64,000 nucleotides of DNA from Fibrella aestuarina BUZ 2 (lineage in GTDB: Bacteria; Bacteroidota; Bacteroidia; Cytophagales; Spirosomataceae): the NCBI RefSeq assembly GCF_000331105.1, contig NC_020054.1:4005477-4069476 (forward strand), given 5' to 3'. The position numbers were made by a program, and so were the translations under genes. The notes beneath the pieces were generated by a model. That model was not told the DNA's origin. It saw nothing but the letters and a program-made list of their open reading frames with translations, and made no database searches. Shown in pieces: positions 9,069 through 57,100 of the stretch (position 1 is its first letter; each line of letters starts with the position of its first letter).

Positions 9069-9127
9069 TGGAGTAGTTGGGGTTGTAAGCGTGATTAAAT
9101 TTCTCGTGGCGGAGCGAAGCATACCAG

Positions 9128-9414: not shown

Positions 9415-9420
9415 GGTTGA

Positions 9421-13359: not shown

Positions 13360-13369
13360 AGTGATCAAT

Positions 13370-13387
13370 AAAGTATAATTATACTTT
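13370..13387. promoter_or_regulatory. perfect 18-bp palindrome AAAGTATAATTATACTTT
   Basis: A perfect inverted repeat sits 11 nt upstream of the start codon of the 1312-residue exported protein. Variants of the same site lie near the starts of other operons in this window (2988, 25684, 33591, 34942 and 35320). Likely an operator, or a phage-specific promoter element. Confidence 0.55.
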
Positions 13388-13401
13388 TATCAATAAAAGA
13401 G

Positions 13402-17353: not shown

Positions 17354-17677
17354 CTAGTCGAGAGTTAACAGACCTTTGAGTTCGATACTGTGCTGGGTCA
17401 AATCCGCCAGTTCAATCGTGACGTACTGGACAACCGGGCATTGTCGCTCGTTTTGCAGCCGCACCCATTCGGGCAACTGACCCGGTGCTTGGTAGGCGAG
17501 GTGCAACGTGTCACCCTCGATCCGACTGGATGAGCAGGCGCAGGTCGTACTCACATCCCGAAAGGCAGGGCCTTGCGCGCGCGTCAGGGTGGTGCTGAAG
17601 CGTGCGCCCAACCGAAGTCTGCCCATGTCAAGGCTGTCTGGCAGGTTGGTGCTAGTTGTAGTAGTCACTGGTTCCAT
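17354..17677 (-). CDS. unknown small virion-module protein
   Basis: A 107-residue protein from the ATG at 17677 (MEPVTTTTSTNLPDSLDMGR); the longer frame to 17707 would overlap the terminase more deeply. It overlaps the terminase end by 26 nt. It contains a CAC motif near the middle and a beta-rich C-terminus. It may be a head-completion protein, by analogy with small genes after terminases, but nothing specific is visible. Confidence 0.5.
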   Translation of the reverse strand: MEPVTTTTSTNLPDSLDMGRLRLGARFSTTLTRAQGPAFRDVSTTCACSSSRIEGDTLHLAYQAPGQLPEWVRLQNERQCPVVQYVTIELADLTQHSIELKGLLTLD

Positions 17678-19766
17678 AGGTTCGTGGGGTGCCCGGCTGA
17701 AGACCAAGGCGAATGAATGAGTTGTTGTCAGCCTGCCGCGCGTACCCTGGCCGCGCGCCGAGCTGAATTACATTGGTGTCCGTAGGCTGAGTGCTGCCCG
17801 TTAGAAGGGCCGTTACTTCATCGTCGTCGAGTGCTTTGTCGCGCAGGGCATGCAGCAGGTGCAGCACGCAGTGAAAAGCCGAACCGATGTCGTTGTTTTC
17901 GTCACTGCCCCAGTTGAGTAGACTGTACAGCAAGGGCAACAGCGTAATACGTTGATAGCGGTCATTGGCCATGTACTGATGCCCCAGCGCGGTTACTTCC
18001 TGCTTGACGTTGCCCTTGATTTCAATACCCGGCTGAGTGCCGATATAATAGAGCCGATGGCCCTGCTGGCGGTCGTTAAGCCAATCGACGAAGGCATCCG
18101 TGTTGTATTCGTAGAGGGTCTTTTTTACCGAGTAAAACAGCATCCCTTTCATGAACTCTTCGTAGGTGGCCGGCATCGACGGCAGCTTGTCGATGTACAG
18201 CGCCACGGGCATGTCCTGATTGATCGCCTGCGTGGTGGGCTTGCGATAGATGATCATGCAGTTGCGTGAATCCCGTTTCTTGAGCTTCTGCCCCGGGCGC
18301 AGCTTTTTATAGCAGTCATCAATACCCGCCACGTGCAGGCCCGACAGGCCCGCCTGGGGTACGCCCTCCAGGTTAATCAGCCACGGCCCGCGCTGTTTTT
18401 CGGGCGTATTCGCCGGGTCCTGCACGAAAATAACGCGACCCGTTTTGCGGCCAAAGGCATCGTTTTCGTACTTCAGATGACCCGACACCCACGCCAAATC
18501 AAGCCCGTGGCTTTTGACATGCTCGATCTGCGCCAGCAGCATAGCGCTGTCGTAGGCCAGGCTGGTGGCAGGCTCGAAGGCCTCGATTTCGTTGAGCGGG
18601 TTTTCAACCTTTTCCTTCTGCAGCAGCGAGGCGTTGTGCTCGATACTCTTTCGGTAATTCTGAATTTCCTTTTCGGCCTGCTCGACCAGGTCTTCCCCCG
18701 TGTGCAGGTCGATGAAACGCAGATAGCCGCGCGTTTTAGGCGTGAAATGGGCTTTGGCTTCGTAGTCGAGCGGATTGAAAAACATCCGCTTGTAATTCTC
18801 TGATGGGTTGATGAACGCGTTGGATGTGCCCCCTACCACGAACATGCCCCACTGCCCATCACCACTACCCAGACAGTCTTTGTTTTCCGCGTAGAAGTTA
18901 TCCAGCGTGTCGCCTTTCCACAGGCCTGCCTCGACGACGGTAATCTTCGTGTAGCGCTGCCCTTTGAAGGGGCCCGCATCTTTTTCGGACGAGATGAGCC
19001 GGTACTGCACCCAGTTGTGTTTGATACCAACTTTGCTGCTACCCTTGCCAACCCAGCGACCAACGGCGAAATTCTCGTTGTTGTCCTCGATAATATCGAG
19101 CACCTGCCCGTTCCAGGTTTTAAAGAACGGGTGAATGTGTTCAGCCCACAGCGAGCGAAAGGCGTTTACCTCGCCCTTCATGTGCTTTTCGGTGGGGTAA
19201 CCCCGCCCGATCCAGCGATCACGACCCGTGCAGAACAGGAAATGATACATATCCACGCCCAGAAACTCCATCTGCGTCCAGCCGATGGTGCGGGGCTTGG
19301 CTTTGATCAAATTGCTGGCGCGGTAGGTGCGGCCGTTGATGGTGCGCTGCCGGAGATTCCACAGCACCCGCATGATTTCCTCGTCGTTTTGCCGGAACAG
19401 CGGCGCGTCCCAACCGGTAATCGTGTCGGTCTCCGCATCCTGACGGGGAATCTTGATGAAGTTTAAATAGAAATAATGATACCCATTGATGTAGTGATTA
19501 TTGTAGGGGCATACCCAACCGAACTTGATGCGGTGCAGCTGCTCGCTCCACCATTTCCAGGCGGAGTCGCCGCGCGCTTTGGGACTATCGGGAATCCGAT
19601 CAGCCAGCACGGGCCGGTACAGATCCTGTACGCTGGGGCCTCTGGGGTCAGTCGACGTCGTCTCTACGACCGGAGCAGGCGCGGCTACCGGCGGGGGATC
19701 GGTGGCCATCACCGACAGGGCAACGCCCAGCACGCCCGCCTTGATGAGTTTACCGACCTTATCCAT
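17652..19766 (-). CDS. terL: terminase large subunit (divergent Bacteroidota-phage type)
   Basis: 704 residues from the ATG at 19766; the longer frame overlaps the upstream Cys-rich gene. Seen: an aromatic N-terminal segment (FGWVCPYNNHYINGYHYFYL); a Walker A-like KAKPRTIGWTQ (about 160), resembling the deviant R-x-x-G-W-[ST] loops of large terminases; a Walker B-like ITVVEAGLWK (about 285); and the coupling-type VVGGTSNAF (about 320). A nuclease-lobe start VAGIDDC (about 490) precedes PVALYID (about 535). Family knowledge: the ATPase drives DNA packaging and the RNase H-fold nuclease cuts concatemers. Its place just upstream of structural genes fits. The small terminase is not identified. 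Confidence 0.75.
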   Translation of the reverse strand: MDKVGKLIKAGVLGVALSVMATDPPPVAAPAPVVETTSTDPRGPSVQDLYRPVLADRIPDSPKARGDSAWKWWSEQLHRIKFGWVCPYNNHYINGYHYFYLNFIKIPRQDAETDTITGWDAPLFRQNDEEIMRVLWNLRQRTINGRTYRASNLIKAKPRTIGWTQMEFLGVDMYHFLFCTGRDRWIGRGYPTEKHMKGEVNAFRSLWAEHIHPFFKTWNGQVLDIIEDNNENFAVGRWVGKGSSKVGIKHNWVQYRLISSEKDAGPFKGQRYTKITVVEAGLWKGDTLDNFYAENKDCLGSGDGQWGMFVVGGTSNAFINPSENYKRMFFNPLDYEAKAHFTPKTRGYLRFIDLHTGEDLVEQAEKEIQNYRKSIEHNASLLQKEKVENPLNEIEAFEPATSLAYDSAMLLAQIEHVKSHGLDLAWVSGHLKYENDAFGRKTGRVIFVQDPANTPEKQRGPWLINLEGVPQAGLSGLHVAGIDDCYKKLRPGQKLKKRDSRNCMIIYRKPTTQAINQDMPVALYIDKLPSMPATYEEFMKGMLFYSVKKTLYEYNTDAFVDWLNDRQQGHRLYYIGTQPGIEIKGNVKQEVTALGHQYMANDRYQRITLLPLLYSLLNWGSDENNDIGSAFHCVLHLLHALRDKALDDDEVTALLTGSTQPTDTNVIQLGARPGYARQADNNSFIRLGLQPGTPRTYGTSDYYN

Positions 19767-19786
19767 TGTGTAGAGGAGAAAAACGA

Positions 19787-20122
19787 TTAAAAAAGCCACT
19801 GAACCAGCCGGTACAGCCAGCTGTGGCGCGGAGGATAGCAGGCCGCGCGCGGTCTGCAGCGCGGTGGTGATTGGGCCGAACCGGCGCTGCACCCCTTATC
19901 AGCCCAGAAGAGTTGTGGTGTTGGACAGCCGCAGCACATACAACTGCCGTTGGTGTAGCAGCTCCAGGCCTGCCGCTTGCGGGTCTCGACGCTTGCCTTC
20001 AGATTCCGACCCAGCAGGAACGGTGCGTACTGAAAAAGCCAGTAGCGCACCGTTCCCTGCCAGAACCAGATGGCGTCGGCCGGCTTGGCCCGCAGGTGCC
20101 TGATGGCCTCCCGCAAACCCAT
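19787..20122 (-). CDS. Cys-rich small protein beside terminase
   Basis: A 111-residue protein with a dense Cys cluster (SCYTNGSCMCCGCPTP at about 54-69, then CSAGS and further Cys), an amphipathic aromatic N-terminal region and an Arg/Pro-rich C-terminus. The Cys spacing suggests a metal-binding or disulfide-rich knuckle. It starts at the ATGA overlap with the previous gene and ends 20 nt before terL. The small terminase or a head-assembly zinc protein are possible roles; no family is recognised. Confidence 0.55.
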   Translation of the reverse strand: MGLREAIRHLRAKPADAIWFWQGTVRYWLFQYAPFLLGRNLKASVETRKRQAWSCYTNGSCMCCGCPTPQLFWADKGCSAGSAQSPPRCRPRAACYPPRHSWLYRLVQWLF

Positions 20123-32556: not shown

Positions 32557-32632
32557 TGGGACAAAAGAGCGGATTCGAACCGCTGACCTCCGGAAATGGC
32601 AATCCGGTATTCTACCACTGAACTACAATCGT
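32557..32632 (-). tRNA. tRNA-Gly(GCC)-like gene with 8-nt anticodon loop
   Basis: The D arm (GTTC / GAAT with AGTGGTA loop), T arm (AGCGG TTCGAAT CCGCT) and an encoded CCA end are clear. The anticodon stem CCGGA/TCCGG closes a loop of eight bases, TTGCCATT, one more than normal; U33-GCC is the best anticodon reading. The acceptor stem (ACGATTG / CTTTTGT) has two T-T mismatches. It could be a +1 frameshift-type tRNA, a nuclease-resistant decoy, or a decaying gene. Confidence 0.75.
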
Positions 32633-32707
32633 CATCCACCTCCCGTTTCGCGGAGTCGTCTCGCGCTTCGTTCGCCCATCGACTGGGCTTCTCGTTCTAA
32701 AAATGTG

Positions 32708-32794
32708 CGGGCGATGAAGGGCTCGAACCTCCGACCTCACGTTTGGGGTGGCTGACTTCCCAAACATGCGCTCTACCATCTGAGCTAAACTCCC
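32708..32794 (-). tRNA. tRNA-like gene with 21-nt anticodon loop
   Basis: A canonical D arm (GCTC AGATGGTA GAGC) and T arm (GGAGG TTCGAGC CCTTC) flank an anticodon stem CATGT / ACGTG. The loop is 21 nt instead of 7, and its ends (TTGGG...CCCAA) can extend the stem. If the first seven bases, TTGGGAA, are read as the loop, the anticodon would be GGG (Pro). The acceptor (GGGAGTT / ATCGCCC) has two mismatches and CCA is not encoded. Unusual; possibly non-decoding. Confidence 0.6.
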
Positions 32795-33069
32795 AGTTTG
32801 CCAGCCCACCAGCAGAGCTATCCCTACCGGGTCTGGCTCCAGAAGCTACAGGCTCTGCGAACAGATCTGCACTACTGCCGGGCGTCTGGCTCGCCCCCCT
32901 TTCGGGCACGGGTTATCGTTTTCGCATAAACAGTAGGGGCCAGAGTCCAGCCCCGTGTTCGAGTATGCTTTATACAAAAATGAAAAGGCTAGGTTTGGCT
33001 GTCGAACAAGTGTGTCTTTGCCTTTTCCTCGTGCTTCAGTTTCCGCTCCGGATCGACAACCAAACTTTG

Positions 33070-33142
33070 TAGCGGGAGCGTGACTCGAACACGCGACCTC
33101 TGGGTTATGAGCCCAGCGAGCTACCGACTGCTCCATCCCGCC
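33070..33142 (-). tRNA. initiator-type tRNA-Met (CAT)
   Basis: A full cloverleaf: acceptor GGCGGGA / TCCCGCT with only a G-T wobble at 1-72, D stem GAGC/GCTC with the A11-T24 pair, and anticodon stem CTGGG/CCCAG closing CTCATAA. The three consecutive G-C pairs next to the anticodon, the purine-11/pyrimidine-24 pair and the weak 1-72 pair are initiator (fMet) features. CCA is not encoded. A phage-borne initiator tRNA is uncommon. Confidence 0.85.
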
Positions 33143-40592: not shown

Positions 40593-41458
40593 TTACGACA
40601 CAAACGAAAAACACCCTGTTGGCTGGCCTGTTGGCTATGGTCAGACACCTTAGCCAGCACCCATTCATGGGGCTACCTGCCCCCGACCGGATTAGCGCCA
40701 CCAACTTGATTAACGTCAGGGAGTTGAGCAAATTGATGCTCAACGGTTGGAGTGCCGAATACGCCCTCCGCATAACGCCAGTGGTCAATGATCAGCAATA
40801 TCTGCACAGTTCATTGCACTGGACGTTTCCGCAAGCCTACTACAGCATCCTGTTCACCGCGCGCGCGCTGCTACTGATGCGGGGCTGTTCTGTCAGCAAC
40901 GACGAGTTAGTAGCCAGAAAAGTGGCCAGCATGGTAGTGAGTGGACTCTACCCGCAAGGCTTAAACTACTACCTGACGGGCACCCCCCACGATTACAACG
41001 CCAAACGGCTACAGGGCGGGGCGGCGTTGTTTTCGGTGCTGACCCAAACGCGCGACAAACAGCTTAAAAAACAAGGCAATCAGGTTCAGACCAACCCCAA
41101 AACGGCAATGCGGTCACCGCGCACCGGGGAAGTATTAGATAAGCTGGGACCGGAACACTATAAGGCACTGGCTGACCAGACCGGTCCGACGTGCTTCTTC
41201 AACGTGCTGCACCGGCTGCGTATTTCCAGCAACCAGCCGAACCCGGACGTACTGACCACCGACGAGTTGGATGTGCGCGAACTACACGCCTGTCTGGTCG
41301 AGCTGGTCAACCGAATCAATCAGGTACACGAGGCCTATCTAGCCAAGGCGCTCGGCCTTGATAACTACCAGACGCTGGTGGCGGGGTTACCGGGCTACCT
41401 GAACGAATCCTTTGTCAACGAACGACTCAACACCCTTATCCCCATTCTGGCCAAATGA
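40589..41458 (+). CDS. unknown helical protein, faintly HEPN-like
   Basis: A 289-residue protein. The segment TFPQAYYSILFTARALLLMR (about 79-98) resembles the helix that opens HEPN domains. No R-x4-6-H catalytic motif is evident, so the resemblance may be superficial. Further helices with basic loops (RDKQLKKQGNQVQTNPKTAM) follow. It is coupled by ATGA overlaps to both neighbours, the latter the Rad52-type gene, so a recombination role is possible. Confidence 0.45.
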   Translation: MITTQTKNTLLAGLLAMVRHLSQHPFMGLPAPDRISATNLINVRELSKLMLNGWSAEYALRITPVVNDQQYLHSSLHWTFPQAYYSILFTARALLLMRGCSVSNDELVARKVASMVVSGLYPQGLNYYLTGTPHDYNAKRLQGGAALFSVLTQTRDKQLKKQGNQVQTNPKTAMRSPRTGEVLDKLGPEHYKALADQTGPTCFFNVLHRLRISSNQPNPDVLTTDELDVRELHACLVELVNRINQVHEAYLAKALGLDNYQTLVAGLPGYLNESFVNERLNTLIPILAK

Positions 41459-41979
41459 ACTCAGAAACCAACACCAACACGCTCGACATTCTGACCCAGC
41501 CCATTCAACCCGAAGAAATTGAGTGGCGGGTTCAGATGCAGACCAAAACCGGCAAAATCATCGTCGTCCCCTACATCACCAACCGCTGCGTGATGGAGCG
41601 ATTCGACCGGCAGTTTGGTTGGGCCAACTGGCAGAATGAAATTACCGAGATTCAGGGCGGGTTTCTGTGCAAAGTGATTGTGACCATTCCGGCCACCGAC
41701 ACTACGCCAGCCCAAACGCTGTTCAAAATGGACGGGGCCAGCCGCACCGACATCGAACCGGTGAAAGGCGGGATTTCGGATGCTATGAAGCGGTGCGCGG
41801 TTCAGTTCGGGCTGGGCCGTTCGCTCTATAACTACCCGCGCGTGATGATTGACACGCCCGACAAGTTCATTCCTGATTGGGCCAGCCAGCAGTTAGACGT
41901 ACTGGTGAAGAAGATTAACGACGGTAGTTACCGGGGCGGTGATATGGTCGTGCTAAAAGCCTCTTATGCCAAATCATGA
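41455..41979 (+). CDS. Rad52-type single-strand annealing protein
   Basis: A 174-residue protein matching the Rad52/22 annealing core: IEWRVQMQTKTGKIIVVPYI (about 22-41), VMERFDRQFGWANWQNEITE, FLCKVIVTIPATDTT, FKMDGASRTDIEPVKGGISD and AMKRCAVQFGLGRSLYNYPR. Known: such proteins anneal complementary strands coated by SSB and support phage recombination and concatemer formation. No partner exonuclease is adjacent, although the DEDD nuclease at 27678 could serve. Confidence 0.85.
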   Translation: MNSETNTNTLDILTQPIQPEEIEWRVQMQTKTGKIIVVPYITNRCVMERFDRQFGWANWQNEITEIQGGFLCKVIVTIPATDTTPAQTLFKMDGASRTDIEPVKGGISDAMKRCAVQFGLGRSLYNYPRVMIDTPDKFIPDWASQQLDVLVKKINDGSYRGGDMVVLKASYAKS

Positions 41980-42307: not shown

Positions 42308-43522
42308 ATGAGCCAACTCGACTTATTCACGCCTGCCCTTACCGATGGTGAATTGCCACCCGTTGCCCTGACGCCCGAAATTGAATCGTTGCTGGCCAAG
42401 AATGCCCCCGTAGCGATTGGGGTAAGTGGTGGCAAGGATTCAGGCGCTGCGGTTTGGGCTGTGGTCAACCACCTCAACCAGATCGGCCACACCGGCCCGC
42501 GCCTGCTGATTCACGCCGATCTTGGCCGAATCGAGTGGGCGGATTCGCTGCCGATCTGTCAGCAACTGGCCGATCTGTTTGGGCTGGAACTGGTCGTTGT
42601 GCGTCGGCCTGCTGGTGGCATGGTGGAGCGGTGGATGAGTCGATGGGATGGCAATTGCACCCGTTATGCCGATCTGGCCTGCGTCAAACTGATTATGCCG
42701 TGGTCAAGCCCAGCCAATCGGTTCTGCACATCGGAGTTGAAAACGGCGATCATCAGCCGTGAACTGACCCGCCGCTTTCCCGGCCAGCGCATTGTGTCGG
42801 TGTCAGGGATTCGTCGGCAGGAAAGCAGTAAGCGCGCGCAAAAGCCCATCTGTTCCGAGCAAGCTCGACTGACAGTAAAAACGCTGGGTACGTCGGGCGT
42901 AGACTGGAATGCCATTATCGAGTGGAAGCTGGACCACGTATGGAACTGCCACAAGTGGCACAACCTGCCCATCCACGAGGCTTACAGTACCTACAATATG
43001 ACGCGGGTAAGCTGCTGCTTCTGCATCATGTCGTCCCTGCCCGATCTGCTGCGGTCAGCGGGCTGCGAAGCCAATCAGGACGTATACCGCGAACTGGTCG
43101 ATCTGGAAATTGCCTCGACCTACGCCTTCCACGAAGATACCTGGCTTGGCGACGTGGCCCCGCACCTGCTGACCGATGAACAACGAACAGCCCTGAGTGG
43201 AGCCAAATACGCCGCTCGTCGGCGTGAACTGGCCGAATCCCGCATTCCTGAACATCTACTCTTTACGGAAGGCTGGCCAACGCGGATGCCCACCTACGAC
43301 GAGGCGGTACTGCTGGCTGAGGTTCGGCAGGAAGTAGCCGACACGGTGGGCCTGACTATCGGTTTCACCGACCCGGCCTCTATCCTGCAACGCTACGCCG
43401 AATTGATGGCCGAGCGGGCTGAAAAGCAATTCTTAGCCGACTGGACCGAAGCCAAACGCGAGTTAAAAGCCCTGAACAAACGACTCAAAGAAGCTTATGA
43501 AGAAGCCAATCAAACAGTATAA
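42308..43522 (+). CDS. PAPS-reductase-family PP-loop enzyme
   Basis: A 404-residue protein. The PP-loop SGGKDSGAAVW (40-50) follows APVAIGV; LLIHADLGRIEW and SPANRFCTSELKTA match the phosphoadenosine phosphosulfate reductase (CysH/DndC-like) fold. A later CCFC cluster (about 236) could bind iron-sulfur or zinc. The C-terminal 60 residues form a charged coiled coil. Family members reduce PAPS, or activate substrates in DNA phosphorothioation (DndC) and tRNA thiolation. No other Dnd or sulfur gene is visible, so the substrate is open; DNA or tRNA modification is a reasonable guess. Confidence 0.75.
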   Translation: MSQLDLFTPALTDGELPPVALTPEIESLLAKNAPVAIGVSGGKDSGAAVWAVVNHLNQIGHTGPRLLIHADLGRIEWADSLPICQQLADLFGLELVVVRRPAGGMVERWMSRWDGNCTRYADLACVKLIMPWSSPANRFCTSELKTAIISRELTRRFPGQRIVSVSGIRRQESSKRAQKPICSEQARLTVKTLGTSGVDWNAIIEWKLDHVWNCHKWHNLPIHEAYSTYNMTRVSCCFCIMSSLPDLLRSAGCEANQDVYRELVDLEIASTYAFHEDTWLGDVAPHLLTDEQRTALSGAKYAARRRELAESRIPEHLLFTEGWPTRMPTYDEAVLLAEVRQEVADTVGLTIGFTDPASILQRYAELMAERAEKQFLADWTEAKRELKALNKRLKEAYEEANQTV

Positions 43523-44027
43523 CCTGTTTGGTGGGGTTGATCTGGTGCAACCGACTGAGCCAAAACCCAGCCCCGACCTGAAACAACTGTCAGGCTCCAG
43601 ATACGCCCAATATGGACTGGACGATATAAAGGAGCCCGCCGATAAAGGCGAAACGATTAGGCAACTATTCGACCCTTGGCTGTGCGTCGATTTTCCAATA
43701 ACGGAACCCCACATCTACCTATGCTTCGGCTCCTTCGCGCTGAGCGGTCGAACGGTGGCGGCATTCAGCCAGCAACAACCCATCGACGGAATCACCGAAA
43801 CGGAGTATTGCTTCAAATGTCGGGAAGTACGCGCGCGGCTCCACTACCATGTGAAGGGCGTTACTACTAACTATTTCGGTGAGCCCTTCGAGCCAAATCT
43901 TGGTGTATGTCCTGAATGCATCGAATGGGCGGCTGACTATCTGGCCCGACGTGCCGACGAGCAAGCGGCCAAGCTGGCCGAACCGCCACCGCCGCCACCT
44001 ACGGGCACCCAACTTAGTCTTATCTAA
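43497..44027 (+). CDS. unknown zinc-ribbon protein
   Basis: A 176-residue protein with the Cys pairs CFKC (about 104) and CPEC (about 139) separated by 35 residues containing a His-rich RLHYHVKG, and a Pro-rich end (EPPPPPPTGTQLSLI). The C-terminal LSLI could act as a short peptide motif. Its start lies inside the end of the PP-loop gene (26-nt overlap), so the two are co-translated. Unknown. Confidence 0.5.
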   Translation: MKKPIKQYNLFGGVDLVQPTEPKPSPDLKQLSGSRYAQYGLDDIKEPADKGETIRQLFDPWLCVDFPITEPHIYLCFGSFALSGRTVAAFSQQQPIDGITETEYCFKCREVRARLHYHVKGVTTNYFGEPFEPNLGVCPECIEWAADYLARRADEQAAKLAEPPPPPPTGTQLSLI

Positions 44028-44326: not shown

Positions 44327-45442
44327 ATGAAATTCATTGTCTCATCTTCGGTTCTTCTCAAGAACCTACTGAACCTAAGCGGCGTGATCGCCGCCACTCC
44401 CATCGTGCCCGTCCTCGAAAACGTCCTGCTGCGGATTGAGGATGGTCTGATTACCGTTACGGCGTCTGATTTGCAGCTAACCATGACCGTACAGGTTCCG
44501 GTGGATGCCTCCGCCGATGGCTCGGTTTGCATACCGGCCAAGTTGCTGCTCGATGTGCTCAAAAGCCTGCCTGAGCAGCCCATCACCATCCATATCAACG
44601 CTAAAACCTTTGCCACTGAAATCCTGACGGATAACGGACGTTTCAAACTATCGGGCCAGAATCCAATCGACTACCCCAAACTGCCCAAGGTGGCCGCCAT
44701 TACCACGGTTGAACTTCCATCGGGTACGCTACTGGATGCCATTACCCACACCGCCTTTGCGTGTAGTAACGACGATCTGAAAGCGGCTCAGACTGGCGTA
44801 TATGCCCTGTTCGCTCCATCAGGTACAACGTTCTACGCCACCGATGGCCACAAACTCGCGCGCTACACCCGCACCGACGTACAGGCCCTTACCGAAAGTT
44901 CGTTCATCATACCCCGAAAAGCGATGGCCCAACTAAAAACGGCCCTTAGCGAAGGGGTTCCGGTGACGCTGGAAGCCAACCAATCCCATGCTTCCTTTTC
45001 GTTTGGCTCGACGCAGCTCATTACCCGGCTGATCGACGAGGTATACCCCGGCGTTGAGGCGATGATTCCGACGACCAACACCAATGATTTAGTTATAGGC
45101 CGCGCCGATCTGGTCAACTCGTTGAAGCGAACGATGATCTGCGCCAACCGCACGACGCACCAGATCAGACTGTCGTTGAAGAAAAACACGTTGACAATCT
45201 CAGCGGAAGACCTCGACTACGCCAATGAGGCCAGTGAAGTACTGCTTTGCGAGTACGAGGGCGACGATATGGAGATTGGTTTTAACGCTAAAATTCTCAC
45301 TGATCTGGCCACTACGCTGTCAGCAAAGATGGTCACGCTGTCGATGTCCACCTCAAACCGACCCGCGCTGCTCACTCCGGTCGATAAGGACGAACACGAG
45401 GCCATTCTGATGCTCATTATGCCCTTGCAATTGAACGTGTAG
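44327..45442 (+). CDS. dnaN: DNA polymerase III beta subunit (sliding clamp)
   Basis: 371 residues, the normal clamp length, with three repeated domains. Recognisable phrases: MKFIVSSSVLLKNLLNLSGV, PIVPVLENVLLRIEDGLITV, RFKLSGQNPIDYPKLP (about 105-120), GVYALFAPSGTTFYATDGHK (about 161-180) and AILMLIMPLQLNV at the end. The clamp tethers the replicative polymerase and repair enzymes. A phage-encoded clamp without a visible polymerase suggests recruitment of host Pol III or a polymerase elsewhere in the genome. It heads a segment that continues into the PRTRC cassette after a terminator. Confidence 0.92.
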   Translation: MKFIVSSSVLLKNLLNLSGVIAATPIVPVLENVLLRIEDGLITVTASDLQLTMTVQVPVDASADGSVCIPAKLLLDVLKSLPEQPITIHINAKTFATEILTDNGRFKLSGQNPIDYPKLPKVAAITTVELPSGTLLDAITHTAFACSNDDLKAAQTGVYALFAPSGTTFYATDGHKLARYTRTDVQALTESSFIIPRKAMAQLKTALSEGVPVTLEANQSHASFSFGSTQLITRLIDEVYPGVEAMIPTTNTNDLVIGRADLVNSLKRTMICANRTTHQIRLSLKKNTLTISAEDLDYANEASEVLLCEYEGDDMEIGFNAKILTDLATTLSAKMVTLSMSTSNRPALLTPVDKDEHEAILMLIMPLQLNV

Positions 45443-45510: not shown

Positions 45511-46278
45511 ATGACGTTTTTTCAACAACTCGCCGCCCTGAATCTGGTCGGCACCCTCAATTTTTCGGTAACGAAAGTGGGCGACAAGATGACCGTATCG
45601 GTTCGGCTCGATAACCCATCCTGCGGCGATGCCGCGCGCAATCAGATTCGGCCCCTTACGTCCACTGGCACCCCTGTTGAACTTGATGCCGGTTGGTTTG
45701 ACGCGATCACCAAGCCGATGCAATCCGCATCGGGATTGATGGTCGATATGGAAACCCATCAGAAGTCACTCGACAAAGCGCGGCAGGATTCAGCGATGAA
45801 TAAGTCGAACGGCACCAAATCGACTACGCCTACCCCTGCCTCAAGTGCAGCTAGTACCCCTGCCAAACCGACCACGACGGTAATCTCCGCTGTCGATAAA
45901 AAGACGCAGGTGTACATGGATGCCATGCAGAAGGTCGATAAGCTACGGGAGGAAGGCCGGTACATGGACGCGCTGTCCGAGTTGCCCAAGAGTAAGGATT
46001 ACCCCAACAACAAGATTCTGGAAAAGCGACGTACCTGGCTGGCTAATATGGCAATGGGCGGGGTGCTGATTCCTGATCCGTGGCCGATTGATCCCGCCAC
46101 CGAGAAACCCGCTGCGGCAACAGCAACGCCCGAAACTCCGGCACCAGCACCAGCCCCCACCGTCGAGGCCGGGCCAGTGGCGACCGATAATCCGGCAGAT
46201 GCGCCTGACGAGTCAGCCGACGACGACAAAGAGCCGGAGGAAAATCTGGACTCACCCCTTGTCGAAGAAACCATTTAA
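45511..46278 (+). CDS. PRTRC system protein E
   Basis: A 255-residue protein. The N-terminal domain (MTFFQQLAALNLVGTLNFSV; PLTSTGTPVELDAGWFDAI at about 50-68) carries the PRTRC-E pattern, notably the LTGTP-x-ELD phrase. A Ser/Thr/Ala/Pro linker leads to a helical unit (YMDAMQKVDKLREEGRYMDA) and a long acidic Pro/Ala tail. PRTRC (ParB-related, ThiF-related cassette) genes occur as a set on plasmids and other mobile elements. The role of E is unknown. It is first in the cassette here, immediately after a terminator hairpin. Confidence 0.8.
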   Translation: MTFFQQLAALNLVGTLNFSVTKVGDKMTVSVRLDNPSCGDAARNQIRPLTSTGTPVELDAGWFDAITKPMQSASGLMVDMETHQKSLDKARQDSAMNKSNGTKSTTPTPASSAASTPAKPTTTVISAVDKKTQVYMDAMQKVDKLREEGRYMDALSELPKSKDYPNNKILEKRRTWLANMAMGGVLIPDPWPIDPATEKPAAATATPETPAPAPAPTVEAGPVATDNPADAPDESADDDKEPEENLDSPLVEETI

Positions 46279-46302
46279 TCACCTTTTTTTCAACGCAAAG
46301 CG

Positions 46303-46521
46303 ATGTTAGTAAACACTGATTTAGTCCGAAAATTTGAGTTCAAAAAGAACAACGAAACGATTGTAATCGACGACCCCAACCCTGATTTGAGTACCGGGGC
46401 CGTGCAGAACCATTTGGCTGGGCAATACCCCGAACTGCTCACCGCCAAGCTCAAAGGGCCGGAAATTAAGAATGACGCCTTTGTCTACACGTTTGAAACG
46501 ACAATGGGTACCAAAGGCTAA
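46303..46521 (+). CDS. PRTRC system protein C (ubiquitin-like)
   Basis: 72 residues: FEFKKNNETIVIDDPNPDLS, VQNHLAGQYPELLTAKLKGP, then VYTFETTMGTKG at the C-terminus. This matches PRTRC protein C, described in comparative genomics as a beta-grasp ubiquitin-like protein. Importantly the chain ends in a free Gly (GTKG), as needed for adenylation by the ThiF/E1 homologue in the same operon and transfer to a target. Conjugation itself is inference; targets are unknown. Confidence 0.85.
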   Translation: MLVNTDLVRKFEFKKNNETIVIDDPNPDLSTGAVQNHLAGQYPELLTAKLKGPEIKNDAFVYTFETTMGTKG

Positions 46522-46554
46522 TTGCCCCTGACTAATCAACCCTGATTGAAACCA

Positions 46555-46758
46555 ATGAAACGCAGCCAAAAAGCGGCAGCGCGGACACCCGCAGCGGGTG
46601 TCCGCGTGATTGCCCAAAAACCCGACTATACAGTATGCGCACTGCACAATCACCTCGGCGATCTACTCGCTCGGTTCAACCAACTTCAGGACGCCGCCAC
46701 CGTCAATCGCCTGCACCCCCAGTCCCAACCATTAGACCTGCTGGCCCCGCCTTTCTGA
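46555..46758 (+). CDS. small protein between PRTRC C and F
   Basis: 67 residues from the ATG at 46555 (MKRSQKAAARTPAAGVRVIA). The C-terminal half (VCALHNHLGDLLARFNQLQD) is protein-like. Its last 124 nt overlap the start of the F frame. Its coding sequence contains a perfect 12-bp inverted repeat (46580-46606). Not a known PRTRC component. Confidence 0.5.
   Translation: MKRSQKAAARTPAAGVRVIAQKPDYTVCALHNHLGDLLARFNQLQDAATVNRLHPQSQPLDLLAPPF
46580..46606. promoter_or_regulatory. strong hairpin inside the PRTRC operon
   Basis: CGCGGACACCCG, spacer CAG, and its exact complement CGGGTGTCCGCG lie within the 67-residue ORF, after PRTRC-C. This hairpin could protect or attenuate the transcript so that C is made in excess of F, B and ThiF. 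Confidence 0.5.
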
Positions 46759-47828
46759 CGCAGCCCATTTTACCTATCCAGTTCCAATCAGATCGCATTC
46801 AGGATAGTTATGGCCGGTTTTACAAGAAGTCCGGTCCAGACGATCAGGCCAAAGAGGTCGCCGAATATTATGCTTCACTGGATCATCTGGCTAGCCTATA
46901 TAACTTTCAACCGCGCAACTGTCGGGATATGGCTTACCCGATGAATATCGGATTGAGCTTTATAGCGGCTCGTCAGCAGCTAAAAGCGATCAAACCTGAC
47001 CTGACGCTAGTACTGGTGGCTCAATCTTACAAAGACGAAAAAAAGTACCGTGCCACATTGGCTACGGTGCAGGCAGAAGATACAGATATATCGCTCTACA
47101 ACGTACCGGTTCGCCCCTACCAACGCATGATCGGAGATCGGCGGCAACGTCAGCGATTGAGATTACTAGACAGCCTGTTTGCCTTTCTGTATCGCCGGGT
47201 TGCCTTCCCATATTGTGGGCCTGACGACTCAAGCTACTTTGATGACATACTAAGCTATACCATCGACGAAGATGGGATATATGCATCAGAGCGCGACGCT
47301 GAGGAAGAATACGGTGATCACTACAAAGCGGCGAAGCGTAAAGTTTTCGATATACGTCGGCTGTGTTTACAGAGCAAGAAGCGCTTCAATCATGAGTATC
47401 ACGTACAGCAACTCAGTCAACGGGTCAATTCATTCAAACCAAAATCAGAGCTTGATCAAGACCTCTTGATCGCCGCTCAGAAACTGGTGGAAGTTGAGTG
47501 TCATTTCCCGCACCATTCGTTTAAGATGGCAACTGACAACCACCATCTTGAGATTAAAGACCGGGCGGAGGGTACCATTTTCGTTGATCAAATTGCAACA
47601 TTCGTCTGGTCAGATAACGACGAATTCTATAGCCTTTACACGCAGTTTCTCGATGACGAGATGAGTAGTGGCTGTGATCAGGAACCACTGCAATCTGTAC
47701 AGGTCTTTGACTCACCGCAAGCCAAAGACATCCACGCTGACTATCAAGAATATTACCAACTACTGCTGGACGCCGTCGGCGATCTAGGTGCAGTACTATC
47801 CCGAATGGATCATGGAAAATGTGAATAA
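46635..47828 (+). CDS. PRTRC system protein F
   Basis: 397 residues from the only available ATG (46635). The first 40 residues are basic and disordered and overlap the previous ORF. The body contains VAEYYASLDHLASLYNFQPR, MAYPMNIGLSFIAARQQLKA and a helical C-terminal half (YQEYYQLLLDAVGDLGAVLS), in line with PRTRC F by size, order and position before B. Biochemical role unknown. The downstream B gene starts inside its end. Confidence 0.65.
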   Translation: MRTAQSPRRSTRSVQPTSGRRHRQSPAPPVPTIRPAGPAFLTQPILPIQFQSDRIQDSYGRFYKKSGPDDQAKEVAEYYASLDHLASLYNFQPRNCRDMAYPMNIGLSFIAARQQLKAIKPDLTLVLVAQSYKDEKKYRATLATVQAEDTDISLYNVPVRPYQRMIGDRRQRQRLRLLDSLFAFLYRRVAFPYCGPDDSSYFDDILSYTIDEDGIYASERDAEEEYGDHYKAAKRKVFDIRRLCLQSKKRFNHEYHVQQLSQRVNSFKPKSELDQDLLIAAQKLVEVECHFPHHSFKMATDNHHLEIKDRAEGTIFVDQIATFVWSDNDEFYSLYTQFLDDEMSSGCDQEPLQSVQVFDSPQAKDIHADYQEYYQLLLDAVGDLGAVLSRMDHGKCE

Positions 47829-48558
47829 ACTGTTTCTGGATTTCGCTATCCCCAAATTTATCCTGTTGTTCTACCAGCAGCCGAATAGCTACCAACAAGA
47901 TCAAGACGATGACGGATCATTCTATGTCGAATCCTGCGACATAGACCCTGTAACGGGTCTGATGAGGAATCACCACCCACTGGCTGTGGAAGAATCGCAG
48001 GCACTGGGCAAACGTCTGAACGCCTCGCATGACCGAATTACCGGCTTTCTGCTGCCCAAAGGGCTTTTGCCAGAAAACGTATTGTACCTAAACCCACGCG
48101 GGGAAGGGAAAGTAATCTGGTACACCAAACCGGGGAAACGTACCCTGTATTTTAGCGATTATCGTAAAATTAAGGATGGAACAGCCCATGTACCTGGGCT
48201 ACTTTGGTGCGCTACTGCCACCACCTTGCGTCTATTCGCCCTCAAGCCGGGTGTTGTCGAAGGCCGACCGGCCTCTAACACCCAGTTATACTACGCCCCC
48301 TTTTACAATACAAATTCGGCTGGGGAAGTGTGCCAGGGCGATGTTGACATCGACGTGACGGGGGAGTCTACGCTTGAGGATTTTATCACAGGATGGGAGC
48401 GGTTTTACTTCGATAGTCGCTTTTCCCACCTGAGTGGCAATCTACCCATTAAAGGGAATCTGGATGAACTGTGGAACAGCCTGATCGGTACAGAAACGCC
48501 ATTCCCCCACGACTTAATGATCTCGACGAAACTCACACTAAAAGACCTACTGGCATGA
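47812..48558 (+). CDS. PRTRC system protein B (E2-like)
   Basis: 248 residues from the ATG at 47812 (MENVNKLFLDFAIPKFILLF). Hallmarks: KRTLYFSDYRKIKDGTAHVP; TQLYYAPFYNTNSAGEVCQG, with a single well-placed Cys (about 174) matching the catalytic Cys region proposed for the E2-like fold of PRTRC B; and ITGWERFYFDSRFSHLSG. Known from comparative genomics: B groups with prokaryotic E2 (UBC-like) proteins. Inference: it accepts the Ub-like protein C from ThiF. ATGA overlap couples it to ThiF. Confidence 0.8.
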   Translation: MENVNKLFLDFAIPKFILLFYQQPNSYQQDQDDDGSFYVESCDIDPVTGLMRNHHPLAVEESQALGKRLNASHDRITGFLLPKGLLPENVLYLNPRGEGKVIWYTKPGKRTLYFSDYRKIKDGTAHVPGLLWCATATTLRLFALKPGVVEGRPASNTQLYYAPFYNTNSAGEVCQGDVDIDVTGESTLEDFITGWERFYFDSRFSHLSGNLPIKGNLDELWNSLIGTETPFPHDLMISTKLTLKDLLA

Positions 48559-49346
48559 CTTCGGTACATCTTACTGCTAAATACCTGATTAGCCCTCAAA
48601 ACCCCATTACAGTCAACCTTATCGGCGCTGGCGGCACCGGTAGTCAGGTGTTGACTGCACTGGCCCGAATGAATGTAGCCATGCTGGCGCTTGGCCACCC
48701 CGGTCTGTATGTATGTGTATGGGACCACGATACGGTCAGTCGCGCCAACATGGGCCGACAGTTGTTTGCTCAGTGCGAGGTTGGCCAGCACAAGGCGGTA
48801 GCTCTGATTAACCGCACAAACCGGTTTTTCGGCACCAATTGGAAAGCGATTGCTCACAAGTACGAGAAGGCTAATTTATGGCAAAGCCCCTTCGCGCATG
48901 GGTCGGCGAATGTGACCATTAGCTGCGTCGATACTGTGGCTGCCCGTTTCCAGATTGCCGATACGCTCAAAACCCTTAACGTTCATGAGGACCACCGCGA
49001 CCGCCCCTATTACTGGATGGATTTTGGGAATAGCCTCACCAGCGGGCAGGTCATGCTCTCAACTGTTGGCAAGCACAAGCAACCGGACTCCAAGAAATTC
49101 AAGACGGTAGCGCATCTTCCGTTCATCACCGACGAGTACGCCGACGCGCTGCGGAACACAGTCGAGACAAACGAACCCTCCTGCTCACTGGCCGAAGCCT
49201 TGGAGCGCCAGGATTTATTCATCAACCCGACGCTGGCGCAAATGGGCTGCAAACTGCTGTGGAACCTGTTTCGGGAAGGTATGACACCCAACCGGGGTTT
49301 CTTCCTGAATCTGGCTGACTTCCGCTCGATGCCCTTGCCGGTATGA
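48555..49346 (+). CDS. PRTRC ThiF-family E1-like adenylyltransferase
   Basis: 263 residues from the ATG at 48555. Nucleotide-binding loop NLIGAGGTGSQVLTALARM (about 15-33), then WDHDTVSRANMGRQLF (the E1/ThiF Asp and Arg motif), SCVDTVAARF, and NEPSCSLAEALERQDLFINP with a candidate catalytic Cys (about 210). Known: ThiF/E1 enzymes adenylate the C-terminal Gly of Ub-like proteins. Here the partner would be protein C. No deubiquitinase-like JAB protein (PRTRC A) and no ParB-family PRTRC protein is seen in the window. Confidence 0.88.
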   Translation: MTSVHLTAKYLISPQNPITVNLIGAGGTGSQVLTALARMNVAMLALGHPGLYVCVWDHDTVSRANMGRQLFAQCEVGQHKAVALINRTNRFFGTNWKAIAHKYEKANLWQSPFAHGSANVTISCVDTVAARFQIADTLKTLNVHEDHRDRPYYWMDFGNSLTSGQVMLSTVGKHKQPDSKKFKTVAHLPFITDEYADALRNTVETNEPSCSLAEALERQDLFINPTLAQMGCKLLWNLFREGMTPNRGFFLNLADFRSMPLPV

Positions 49347-49621
49347 CCCCACCCCTCCTATCCGATCTGCACCAGCAGACACTTAAGAAACTACTGGCCA
49401 GCCTGACGATTCCCGATAAACCGGCGTACCTCGTCGTCGGGCTGGCCGCGCGCAAAGCGGAGGTACTGGTTAAGCTGGCCATCACGGATGCCGCCTCGTC
49501 CGTCGAAGAAGATATTGCCCACACGCGCCGGGAGCAGGCCGCTATCTGCTTTCCCGACTTCGACCGTATTCTACTTTACCGTCGCAACGGCTCAGGTACG
49601 TTGGACGACATCACCAACTAG
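49343..49621 (+). CDS. unknown small protein after ThiF
   Basis: A 92-residue protein with a helical start (LSDLHQQTLKKLLASLTIPD), KPAYLVVGLAARKAEVLVKL and an acidic centre. ATGA overlap with ThiF makes it a candidate cassette member or target; its composition does not resemble a JAB peptidase. Unknown. Confidence 0.5.
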   Translation: MTPPLLSDLHQQTLKKLLASLTIPDKPAYLVVGLAARKAEVLVKLAITDAASSVEEDIAHTRREQAAICFPDFDRILLYRRNGSGTLDDITN

Positions 49622-50221: not shown

Positions 50222-50232
50222 ACCCACACACC

Positions 50233-50880
50233 ATGCAACCTTTTCCCCTCCAGTGGCCCCTTGGGTGGCCGCAGTATAGTCAACGCCCTAAATCGTGGTC
50301 AGTGGCCAAGCTGGGTACGTTAGCCTTCGAGCGCGACGCCGTGCTGAAAAAGCTGAAACTGCTGAAGGTAAACCGCTACGTACTGACCTCGAACGGGCGT
50401 ACCGACAAACGGGGTAAACTCGTCGATGGCGCCGGGCGGCTCTCTGCTCCGGGCATCGCGCTTTATTTCTACTACATCAACGGTTGGTATGTGGTCGCAG
50501 CGGATCAGTATTCGACGCTGGCGGGCAATCTGCGGGCCGTGCGCGAGGTGCTGAACTCGCTTCATACTGTCAGCCGCTACCATTCCACAACCCTGATGCA
50601 GCGGCTGCTGGGTACGTTACAGGTCGATATACAACGGCTGGTGGATCGCTCAGAACCCATCAAGGCACAACCGATACAGACACCGCCCGCCGCCAGCAAA
50701 CAGCCCGAACAACCTGCTTGGGTGAAAACGCTGGGTCTTGATGGGACCAAGAAGCTAACGTTTGCGGCGGTACGATCAGCGTATAGTAAGCTGTCGATGG
50801 ATGCCAACAGCCAGAAACGACGAGACGCACTAGTGAAAGCGTACGAGCAGGCCGCGCGGCATTTTGGCCATGCGATGTAA
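50233..50880 (+). CDS. unknown protein with degenerate J-domain-like C-terminus
   Basis: 215 residues from the ATG at 50233. A basic N-terminal unit (AVLKKLKLLKVNRYVLTSNG), a central helical region and a Pro/Gln linker. The C-terminal stretch WVKTLGLDGTKKLTFAAVRS then AYSKLSMDANSQKRRDALVK is laid out like a J domain but lacks the HPD tripeptide. It might be a co-chaperone relic or replication accessory. Tentative. Confidence 0.45.
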   Translation: MQPFPLQWPLGWPQYSQRPKSWSVAKLGTLAFERDAVLKKLKLLKVNRYVLTSNGRTDKRGKLVDGAGRLSAPGIALYFYYINGWYVVAADQYSTLAGNLRAVREVLNSLHTVSRYHSTTLMQRLLGTLQVDIQRLVDRSEPIKAQPIQTPPAASKQPEQPAWVKTLGLDGTKKLTFAAVRSAYSKLSMDANSQKRRDALVKAYEQAARHFGHAM

Positions 50881-54140: not shown

Positions 54141-57100
54141 TTAATCGTTTGTCAGCTGGCCACGGACCACGCGGGTCACTGTGCTAGGCAGGCCTACCCA
54201 CTTCGAGACAAAATCAGTCGATTTTCGCACGAACGTATCCCCCGCCTGAGCGGCTTTCTTCTCATCCTCTTCGGTCATGTACCGGCCTGCTGCCAGCACC
54301 GCATCGACGCCCTGCTGCATGTTCGACAGACTGGGCACCTCGTACAGCTGCTCATTGCCACCAACACCATCGACCTTATTGATGGCGTACTCGACGAACA
54401 ACGTACCCAGCCCGGGGAACGTACCTGACACGTTACGCAGCGAGTCGAACATCACGCGTTCGGTCAGCTTATCGGCTTCGGGCGGTTCCCCACCCGACAG
54501 CATGGCCATGATCACCGACGTACCCGCCGACACGGCGCCGACGTACACGGCGTTGGCCAGCACTCCGTAGCCCAGCGTCTGCAGGAGTTTGGCGCGCGCG
54601 GCTTTGGCCTCCGGCGTTCCCGGTGTGGCCTTCGTGTAGCCGATCATCGCCCGAATCACCAGCCCCGCAATTTTCTGCTGCTGGCTGCTGTACATGCCCA
54701 GCATTCGGGTAAAGAACTGCTCGGAGAGTTGCATCGGGGTACGTTCGGCCAGCGAATCCGTGTTATAGGTTTCGCTTACCACCCGCTCGGTCAGGTGGGC
54801 CACCCGATCCCACCACGCATCGCTGTTCTGCTGTAGCCCTTCGGCCGAGGCCTGCAGCTGCGCCGCCTGCACGTAATACAGGATGGGCGCCCGGTCAGCC
54901 CGGCGCATGGCCGACATAAGGCGTTCCCCCGCGAAACTGTCGTACTTCCTGAGCAGCTTCTGCGCGTTGCTGAGCGTCGCGCTGTTGAGGCCCAAATCGT
55001 CAAAACTGACGTCACCGACGTGCTGCTGATTGGAGTCGAGTAGCCGGTTGATTACCGCGCCGAAGCGCCGTAGCTGCTTGGCCTTGGCCGCTTCGTCCAT
55101 GCCCTGACCCAGCAACGCCTCGATGTAGGGCCGCTCGACTGTATCGCTCTCACTAATCAGCCCACCGTGAAGCCCCTGATCGGAGCCGTCGGCGCGTACC
55201 GACGCCCCTACACCCGCATCGCGGTATGCCCCGGCGGTTAGCTTGGCCAGCAGGCCCAGCGCCTGCGGATCGCGCAAATGCTGATCCTCAATAATGCCCT
55301 GCCCCATCGCCGAGGCGGCCGTGCCCAGCTGTTTGGCAGGCAGGCCCAGGTTGAGCGAGAAAATCGAATTCGTGAACCGGCGCATACCCCGCTCGACGCT
55401 CGTCAGGCCGGGGTTGTCCTGCCGAACCCGCATCATGCGCTCCCGGTAGCCACGCAGTACTTCGTATTCGCGCGTCAGGTAGCCCACCAGTCGCGCTTTC
55501 TGCGGCCCCTGGTACTTGTTTTCGATGGCGTCGCGCAGGTGCATGACGTTTTCCGACAACCGACCGTATTCCAGCAGATCAGCGACCTCCTGTTCGTAGC
55601 GGATCATCGTTTGCAGCGGGTTGCCCAGCACGATGCCCTTCGCTTCACGCGACCGCGCAATCAACCGGCCCGACTTATCGTAGAGCTTCATGCGGCCCTG
55701 CGCCTCAGCGCGCGCGTTGGCATCCCCGCCCGTCACCCGAATGGGGTAATAGAACGTCTGGCGGGGCCGGTTTGCCGCCCGTCTGGCCCGGTTCTCGTCG
55801 CGCCGGTCGCGGGCTTCCGCCAGCCACTCCTGCGCGCCGGGCGCCAACGCCGGGTCGATGCCGGCACCCGCTTCGGCAGGCTCGATGAGTCGAGGTGATT
55901 TACCACCGGTACGTTCGCCTACCCGCTCGAAGGGTTCGCCCGGTTTGAGCGCATTGTTTTCTTCTTCGAGCAGATCCGCTACCTCGTTGACGTTGAAAAA
56001 CGAAATCAGCGCCTCGTAGCCTTCCACCTCCCCGGTTTTGGCGTCGTTACCCTCCACAAAGCGCGACAGCAGGCGATTGTATTCCGCCCGGGGTAACATC
56101 AACGTGTCGAGCCGATCGCGCGCGGCATCGTAATACTGGCCACCGTGGTCGAGTTTTTTCGACAACGTACCATCGGCATCGCGCTCGTAGAGTTCATTGG
56201 GACGCGGCTCAGCGTCGAACACGTGAGTTATGCCACCCGTGGGTGACGACCCCTGCTGGGTTTCAGCCAACGCAACCGCTTCCATCACCGTCAGGAGCGG
56301 CACCTGCTTTTCGACCAGCACCACCTCACCCGTATTGGGATTGAAGTCATACGACTGCACCCCGATCAGCTGCTCCTCGAAGGGAGCCAGTAGCCGGGCG
56401 GCCGTAGAAAGCCGGTCCTGCAGGTACGTTTTCGCCGTACCCGCGCGACGTGATCCTTCGAGCTGCGGTTCATGGATCAGGCGTTTGATGCTGCCCTTCG
56501 TGTCGTCGATCAGATCGGCGAACGTAATCAGGTTGGTCCACGACTTGAGCCAGTCTGAGACAAAGTTGGTCAGCCGACCAACGTACCCAGTATCATCACT
56601 GCGCTGGCCAAAGCCTGTACTCACTGCATTGGCCAGCGTTGCCTGATCAAGCGTCAGCACCTGCCCGTTCGCCAGATGGTAATGCGTCTGCGGATGGGTA
56701 TAGGTGAGCTTTTGGGGTGAGGTCAACTCAAAGCCCGTCTGCTCGGCGATCTGTTTGATGTACGACTTATCGGCGTCGGTGTAGTTGACGGGGGACATTT
56801 CCCATAAATCGCGCGAAACAGCCGGTTGCTTCAGCCCCTGCACGGTGAGTTGCGTATTGGTCACCGGCGGGTTGCGCAGCTGCTGCTCGGCCACCGATAG
56901 CAGGTTGGCCAGCGTCGTGGGTTCGGCCCCCAGCACACTGTTGGCAGACGGGGCGGTCGGCTCAAGGGTCGAGGGGGCCGGATCAGGCGCCAACTGGAAT
57001 TGGGGTACGTTGCTGGGGGGCGCAGGCTGAGCGCGATTACCCGGCCCTTCCATCAACCCCAACACCTGCCCGGCCCAACGCGCCAGCTTCGCATCGGCTA

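Follow-up and report, generated by a model that had tools for sequence, protein, structure and literature searches.

This study revealed that a stretch of 64,000 nucleotides from the genome of Fibrella aestuarina BUZ 2 (hereafter the window; G000:C2:4005477-4069476, in a genome of 6.94 Mb on two contigs) carries what, judging from its genes, is a phage variant, without JAB and linked to a clamp, of a kind of ubiquitin-like operon known since 2006. The cassette comprises the PRTRC genes E, C, F, B and ThiF at 45511-49346 and is located inside a prophage of approximately 99.85 kb, of which the window is the middle. We favour, with some reserve, the explanation that this prophage-borne cassette, which lacks the JAB protein A and is placed in a clamp and recombination block, attaches its ubiquitin-like protein C to other proteins. 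Across related loci, C was found to extend beyond its conserved glycine only where A is encoded, and a sliding clamp gene was found directly ahead of the set in several distant lineages.

The five cassette proteins

The genes of the cassette, and the codons relevant to its predicted chemistry, are as follows.

45511..46278, + strand: PRTRC protein E, 255 amino acids (aa), conserved N-terminal part and low-complexity tail (TIGR03741, PF19556)
46303..46521, + strand: PRTRC protein C, ubiquitin-like, 72 aa, ending ...GTKG with no tail (PF14454, structural model)
46516..46518, + strand: codon of the C-terminal Gly72 of C, expected attachment end (conservation)
46555..46758, + strand: small open reading frame (ORF), 67 aa from its ATG (as listed it opens with TTG at 46546), candidate extra component (conservation)
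46635..47828, + strand: PRTRC F by position, 397 aa as listed (position; sub-cut-off matches)
47812..48558, + strand: PRTRC protein B, E2-like, 248 aa (PF14460, 8e-29; structural model)
48331..48333, + strand: codon of Cys174 of B, candidate E2 active site (conservation)
48555..49346, + strand: PRTRC ThiF, E1-like, 263 aa (TIGR03736)
49182..49184, + strand: codon of Cys210 of ThiF, PSC motif, candidate E1 cysteine (conservation)

The five ORFs stand in the places and order given by the initial annotation, and its proposal of a ubiquitin-like, E2-like and E1-like set is supported by family models, which were NCBIfam and Pfam models applied with their own cut-offs. C, E and ThiF exceeded their NCBIfam cut-offs (TIGR03738, 57.5 bits against 45.95; TIGR03741, 45.1 against 37.95; TIGR03736, 247.5 against 144.75), and C and E also matched PF14454 Prok_Ub (3e-25) and PF19556 (5e-43), respectively. 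B was recognised by PF14460 Prok-E2_D (101 bits, cut-off 25) but remained below the NCBIfam cut-off (TIGR03737, 102.5 bits, E=2e-29, cut-off 131.45). The assignment of F held with regard to position but not to family, as both of its models matched below their cut-offs (TIGR03742, 12.5 bits, cut-off 58.4, E=0.05; PF14456, E=0.03). An iterated profile of our own finds F in 106 loci, window copies included, and a profile-profile comparison (hhalign) of the window F with that of Burkholderia phage BgVeeders33 gave a probability of 0.5%. A chance run of ORFs is ruled out by the family-model matches. Two pairs of genes overlap: the ATG of B at 47812 overlaps the 3' end of F by 17 nt, and the stop of B and the start of ThiF share the ATGA at 48555-48558 that had been described. 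A second ATGA joins ThiF to a 92-aa ORF at 49343-49621, which matched no Pfam or NCBIfam family and had no relative among the fetched loci.

The residues expected of a conjugation system are strictly conserved. C ends in a free glycine followed by TAA at 46519-46521, as initially reported, and this glycine is kept in 152 of 152 aligned rows. The cysteine of B, located where an E2 would need one, is invariant (Cys174, 163/163 rows). ThiF contains the reported GxGGxG nucleotide loop in the alignment; its candidate Cys210 is invariant in 164 of 164 rows, and Cys124 likewise in 165 of 165. AlphaFold models were made for B and C. The model of C (predicted local distance difference test, pLDDT, of 82) exhibits a beta-grasp fold ending in a conjugable glycine, in agreement with what had been proposed for this protein. 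With the model of B (pLDDT 87.8), the structural comparison has entries naming an E2 in all of its top 28 rows, bacterial CdnG-E2 entries are among the rows, and the predicted E2 fold carries the candidate active-site cysteine. Foldseek alone gave no match for B at E<=0.001 and no E2 on top. A sequence search of the PDB found nothing with C and only unrelated weak matches with B and A, whereas a PDB profile search with ThiF had yeast E1 as its best match (2.6e-6). A protein homologue search with C returned just the window's own protein.

These features point to a likely conjugation cascade. ThiF would adenylate the C-terminal glycine of C and load C onto a cysteine, and B would accept C on Cys174 and pass it to a lysine. 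As C is translated already ending in glycine, trimming by the JAB protease A would not be needed. E, F and the small ORF may serve as accessory or target-selecting parts. Both this chemistry and the role of A as a trimming protease are inferred. Given the Lys-Gly end of C, a lysine modified by it should retain one glycine after trypsin digestion, which would make conjugates directly searchable.

We also identified a small ORF between C and F as a candidate for an overlooked PRTRC component, on the basis of its conservation. Some candidate ORF of this kind, about 46-70 aa in size, is present in 156 loci out of 170, a total that includes one skipped window copy. Three similarity clusters contain 116 of them, with 70 members (including that of the window), 29 (including that of BgVeeders33, annotated as UEW68559.1) and 17 (including that of L005, a metagenomic phage contig). 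F is invariably in frame +2, and mean identity is higher in the small ORF's own frame than in the F frame (0.41 vs 0.24 in the cluster of 70, and 0.45 vs 0.32 and 0.34 vs 0.22 in the others). The product usually has a hydrophobic end (MVF, VLP, LLF); that of the window ends in PPF. For the members tested, neither Pfam nor NCBIfam gave a match above cut-off. As this ORF overlaps the N-terminus listed for F, that N-terminus may be wrong.

Tails of C and the absence of A

C was compared across 169 loci that hold B, C and ThiF, the window included, with loci left out where C was not recognised. Neither A nor a tail on C was found in 117 of them, both were found in 48, and A with a tailless C in 4; no locus had a tail without A. 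Two window copies (L001 and L004) are omitted from these counts, both L035 and L091 are counted although they are the same 39,074-bp contig, and for chromosomal loci A was sought in the flanks only, up to 10 kb per side. Several loci were set by hand: L174 and L177, where the alignment stopped early and the ends read KTKG and KTNG; L179, whose tail was kept; L169, in which A runs across the record start and C ends in GTKA (scored as no tail); and L021, in which an in-frame stop within C is followed by GTKG and a stop (scored as no tail). L178, a plasmid without A whose C ends in KSKG, lies outside the table, as do the C genes at 18 places in the host's family (flanks of about 1.5 kb), all of which end in GTKG with no tail.

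In loci with A, the tail extends 1-100 residues past the conserved glycine. Shared 3-mers divide the tails into 14 groups, three of which are tails of at most five residues; since the tails differ in this manner, the constant part is the junction and not the tail. It is probable, as far as sequences can tell, that A matures C by trimming it, and that sets without A encode C in an already mature form. Support for this role of A is good, but its phylogenetic basis is thin. On a tree built from 81 rows of reduced redundancy, the state of A changes 5 times or more, and supported branches force 2 of these changes. The pattern could instead reflect ancestry alone, A being purely deconjugating and tails having arisen by chance in A-bearing lineages, a view to which the small number of independent contrasts and the four tailless loci with A lend some weight. 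Nevertheless, none of the 117 A-less loci is tailed, although they include sets from Bacteroidota, from Deinococcus and from gammaproteobacterial plasmids. The 14 tail groups behind a constant end, including those of five residues or fewer, and the trimming of BilA by the JAB protein BilC that is reported in one of two reviews of ubiquitin-like systems (PMC12355090, PMC11354881), likewise render ancestry alone a rather doubtful explanation. The occurrence of tails only together with A amounts to a natural experiment on the idea of JAB trimming. The GTKA end of L169 (Pelobacter pPRO1), present in place of GTKG despite A, is the sole loss of the final glycine among 165 full-length C domains.

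No A was found in the host genome, as had been noted for the visible sequence. TIGR03735 gave no match at E<=0.001 in a search in which the control genomes were also all negative, although the same model does detect A in L007, L118 and L119; Prok-JAB gave none at E<=0.01, with 9 of 14 control genomes positive. With neither model matching, we set aside the idea of a JAB protein supplied from elsewhere in the genome. For the A-less viral contigs, the complete records as deposited, some of which may be fragments, also lacked A in 35 of 35 cases, with three A-positive controls detected. A was likewise missing from 10 of 15 plasmids, several of them annotated as PRTRC; A is thus not universal in PRTRC sets. 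A Prok-JAB search of 39 records returned the three A genes and two partial matches below cut-off, one in the L103 record (E=0.0014, approximately L103:4859-4975, just upstream of its clamp) and one in the L164 record (E=0.003). PRTRC ParB (TIGR03734), whose absence had equally been noted, was not found in the prophage; the only match in the host, at C2:3681314 outside the prophage, is a 313-aa frame below cut-off (126.7 of 278.6 bits). By these models the cassette is an incomplete PRTRC set, lacking A and ParB and with an F that falls short of its family cut-offs. The absence of A could mean either of two things. That the tag works without needing removal, as had been suggested, is the first; the data favour the second, namely that C does not need maturation.

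The operon type 6d described by Iyer et al. (2006) is among the closest known systems. In the part of that work dealing with these operons, type 6d comprises a ubiquitin-like protein, a helical protein, an E2-like protein, a JAB-N plus JAB protein and an E1-like protein; the JAB protein is always adjacent when not fused and is predicted both to process and to remove the ubiquitin-like protein. Our data fit the processing half of this prediction, and they include JAB-less sets in which C is encoded in its trimmed form. The equation of type 6d with PRTRC is our own, as the name PRTRC was not seen in that part. The window shares with this type the families of C, E and ThiF (NCBIfam) and of B (Pfam), the order E-C-F-B-(A)-ThiF, and the C-terminal glycine and E2 cysteine that those authors describe. 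It differs in having no JAB (A), no ParB, a prophage site behind a clamp, an extra small ORF and an F that barely fits its family model.

Linkage to a sliding clamp

The gene directly upstream of the cassette encodes a sliding clamp, as initially described.

44327..45442, + strand: phage sliding clamp, DnaN (TIGR00663, 248.8 bits, cut-off 137.65)

Its stop (45442) lies 68 bp ahead of E. The order of clamp then E was found in ten records with gaps of 2-108 bp, those to the first ATG of E being 2 bp in L091, 11 in L093, 10 in L094, 19 in L095, 108 in L103, 26 in L104, 19 in L113, 3 in L121 and 16 in L207. In L111 the clamp is immediately followed by a 339-aa frame in the place of E, which belongs to no Pfam family. 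Nine of the clamps, compared as stop-to-stop frames with L207 outside the comparison, share 12-37% identity with one another, save for L093 and L094 (90%). All six clamps re-tested match TIGR00663 at E<=3e-13; L095 alone passes the cut-off, and the L103 clamp matches over residues 207-451 of 464 only. Linkage to a clamp thus appears, from sequence matches, to recur across distant lineages.

An adjacent clamp is present in the window, in 8 of the 28 A-less viral loci whose sequence reaches 5.5 kb or more ahead of B, in none of 44 A-positive viral loci, and in one of 63 chromosomal loci, which is the contig of L091; the profile used was built on window-like clamps and may miss others. Among 50 whole records (those with adjacent clamps excluded, and four being A-positive viral or phage records), clamps occur in six. 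In L109 and L110 the clamp lies 8 kb downstream of the set, and in L090 far from it; the other three are plasmids, namely Deinococcus P2 and those of Shewanella and Pseudoalteromonas. The Pseudoalteromonas clamp is below cut-off and neighbours PRTRC ParB. No clamp was found in the record of L089, the closest of the viral relatives. Within the host's family, C is held by 15 of 200 genomes in the 18 places mentioned above, and a clamp lies within about 1.5 kb upstream in three of these: the window, the L091 contig and L207. As for the phage nature of the clamp-linked records, a terminase is present in the window, L091 and L095, and integrases in L104 and L121; the viral status of the others comes from their IMG/VR label, and L207 has none.

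With regard to the target, the initial annotation had proposed host or virion proteins, for which no support was found; judged by the genes nearby, the sliding clamp or replication proteins are indicated instead. The clamp, or a replication protein bound to it, would be the most likely target or meeting place, and the clamp itself is a possible target that we put forward only tentatively. Tagging of the clamp, or of proteins riding on it, might serve to control access of polymerase, repair or host proteins, or their activity, while the element replicates. The ten clamp-linked records name a candidate target, which makes the question of PRTRC function testable. Three points weigh against the explanation favoured here. 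Clamp linkage is far from universal, most relatives having no linked clamp. No clamp-binding motif that would link cassette and clamp was found in E, C, B, A, ThiF or the window-type F. Finally, the association between A and tails comprises 2-5 independent contrasts, with which a sign test cannot reach significance.

Clamp-binding-like motifs were seen in two proteins encoded just upstream of the window's clamp and, as two QLSLI motifs, in F of L007 and L162.

42308..43522, + strand: PAPS-reductase/DndC-like protein with an N-terminal QLDLF clamp-binding-like motif (PF01507, 3e-8; motif scan)
43497..44027, + strand: protein ending in QLSLI, a clamp-binding-like motif (motif scan; no Pfam family at E<=0.01)

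A third terminal pentapeptide of this kind, QLGLF, was observed in the protein at L166:9406-10041.

The PAPS-reductase/DndC-like gene at 42308 raises the alternative of sulfur transfer, in which ThiF and C would act like ThiF and ThiS toward a small molecule, a nucleotide or DNA. Weak matches of ThiF to thiamine ThiF models agree with this, as do two other loci: L171, where a relative of the PAPS-reductase-like gene lies close to the set, and L181, where the set is followed by a gene annotated as PAPS-reductase family. However, no such partner was seen beyond these two loci, an E2-like protein is retained with its cysteine invariant, and Iyer et al. (2006), in their treatment of these operons, set JAB/E2 operons apart from sulfur operons; we regard sulfur transfer as highly improbable. 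A conserved PAPS-reductase or Erf partner was rejected, with one other locus found for each (phmmer) besides the L181 gene. When the fetched loci were searched for 14 proteins of the window other than the clamp, the widest spread was that of the protein at 50230-50880, with relatives in 4 loci; Erf, the PAPS-reductase-like protein and the remaining window proteins had relatives in none to two.

A further alternative is that the cassette is prophage cargo guarding the lysogen from other phages by tagging incoming phage proteins, in the manner of Bil or type II CBASS. Sets of ubiquitin-like, E1 and E2 proteins do serve antiphage defence according to the passages on such systems in PMC12355090 and PMC11354881, related sets are also found on plasmids and chromosomes, and ThiF resembles the E1-E2 models of PADLOC weakly and partially (best E=1.8e-6). 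In contrast, E, C, F and B had no PADLOC match at E<=0.01, no effector or nuclease was recognised beside the cassette, and its position behind a clamp in ten records is not a cargo position. Defence is in our judgement unlikely. The window shares with Bil (BilABCD) the logic of a ubiquitin-like protein, E1, E2 and JAB, where the JAB protein exposes a C-terminal glycine; BilA, however, has two ubiquitin-like domains according to one of these reviews, whereas the window protein has one, with no JAB and no sign of defence. CBASS Cap2/Cap3 likewise uses bacterial E1- and E2-type chemistry, and CdnG-E2 entries are among the structural matches of B, but Cap2 is described as an E1-E2 fusion in one of these reviews, whereas the window proteins are separate and include their own ubiquitin-like protein.

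Relatives, the prophage and neighbouring genes

Searches with the ThiF alignment matched 368 stretches on contigs of bacterial genomes and 90 on viral contigs, of which the best 80 of each were kept (the bacterial ones all with Bacteroidota names), and two of 50,697 named phage records. One of these two, the isolated Burkholderia phage BgVeeders33 (OK665841), encodes E-C-F-B-A-ThiF, all above cut-off, annotated as hypothetical or as a "dinucleotide-utilizing enzyme". The view that a PRTRC set in a phage is unusual was therefore overstated: from the viral-contig relatives and the BgVeeders33 set, PRTRC in phages is recurrent by sequence. BgVeeders33 resembles the window in being a tailed phage and in the order of its E, C, F, B and ThiF genes. 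It differs in having A between B and ThiF, a C that runs 62 residues past GTKG, and no clamp match in its record.

Eukaryotic PCNA, a sliding clamp, is ubiquitinated and SUMOylated. If the clamp is indeed the target, the window would likewise combine a sliding clamp and a ubiquitin-like modifier of it, a bacterial parallel to PCNA modification; the difference is that in the window the two are connected by gene linkage only. Phages and related elements might then run a counterpart of PCNA modification, with a self-mature ubiquitin-like protein, dedicated E1 and E2, a small component encoded between C and F, and their own clamp or clamp riders as targets, an idea that is speculative at present.

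Other settings of the set may hint at a different role. Of 20 plasmid regions, 13 carry an upstream gene annotated as ParB family, and a DnaB gene precedes the set in L107. In Bacteroidota chromosomal loci such as L017 and L014, two genes precede E, which from their sequences we take to be SSB-like and DUF932-like. These neighbours would suit a partition or maintenance aid, in which PRTRC proteins help replication or segregation by binding, with ParB where present and with no covalent tagging. Mere binding would not need the strict conservation of the E1 and E2 cysteines and of the free glycine end, and the prophage has no PRTRC ParB, which makes this role improbable. PRTRC genes are located on Pseudomonas plasmids in the relevant part of PMC7466150, and those of B. 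thetaiotaomicron appear in the iron-stimulon tables of PMC10434189. In L005, the region behind the PRTRC set (8767-13459) was observed to contain octopine-dehydrogenase-like, Amidoligase_2/DAM-like/GNAT-like and ATP-grasp genes, and a gene with a ParB_N match below cut-off.

The window belongs, by its gene content, to a temperate phage. The prophage is bounded by a 37-bp perfect direct repeat (both flanks inspected), and besides the terminase and the Erf-like protein listed below, PHROG profiles recognised an integrase (phrog_1), a repressor, a DnaC-like loader and an endolysin.

L166:3779-3815: repeat copy 1, the 3' end of a tRNA-Leu(gag) gene (flank sequence)
L167:19625-19661: repeat copy 2 (flank sequence)
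17652..19892, - strand: terminase large subunit, same prophage (phrog_6681, 8e-30)
41455..41979, + strand: Erf-like single-strand annealing protein (phrog_1097, 1e-38)

On account of the terminase, endolysin, integrase, repressor and 37-bp tRNA att repeat, a plasmid or conjugative element was set aside. PHROGs gave no family for the putative major capsid (22968-24569) or the putative portal (L167:14868-17324). Of the phage replication operon initially proposed, the phage and the clamp stand; the surroundings look more like a recombination and clamp block than a full replication operon, and the DnaC-like loader sits in the left flank of the window.

Several further features of the prophage were observed. 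It encodes a sigma-70-family factor (28588-29139), and three tRNA genes are predicted at 32557-33142 (- strand), for Pro, Met and a third with an odd anticodon. An ORF of 3258 aa (54141-63917, - strand) matches ResIII above cut-off and Helicase_C and a strawberry-notch-type model below it, and resembles a polyvalent phage protein. Downstream of the cassette, the protein at 50230-50880 has relatives that adjoin the PRTRC set in L089 and L090 and lie more distant in L132 and L160.

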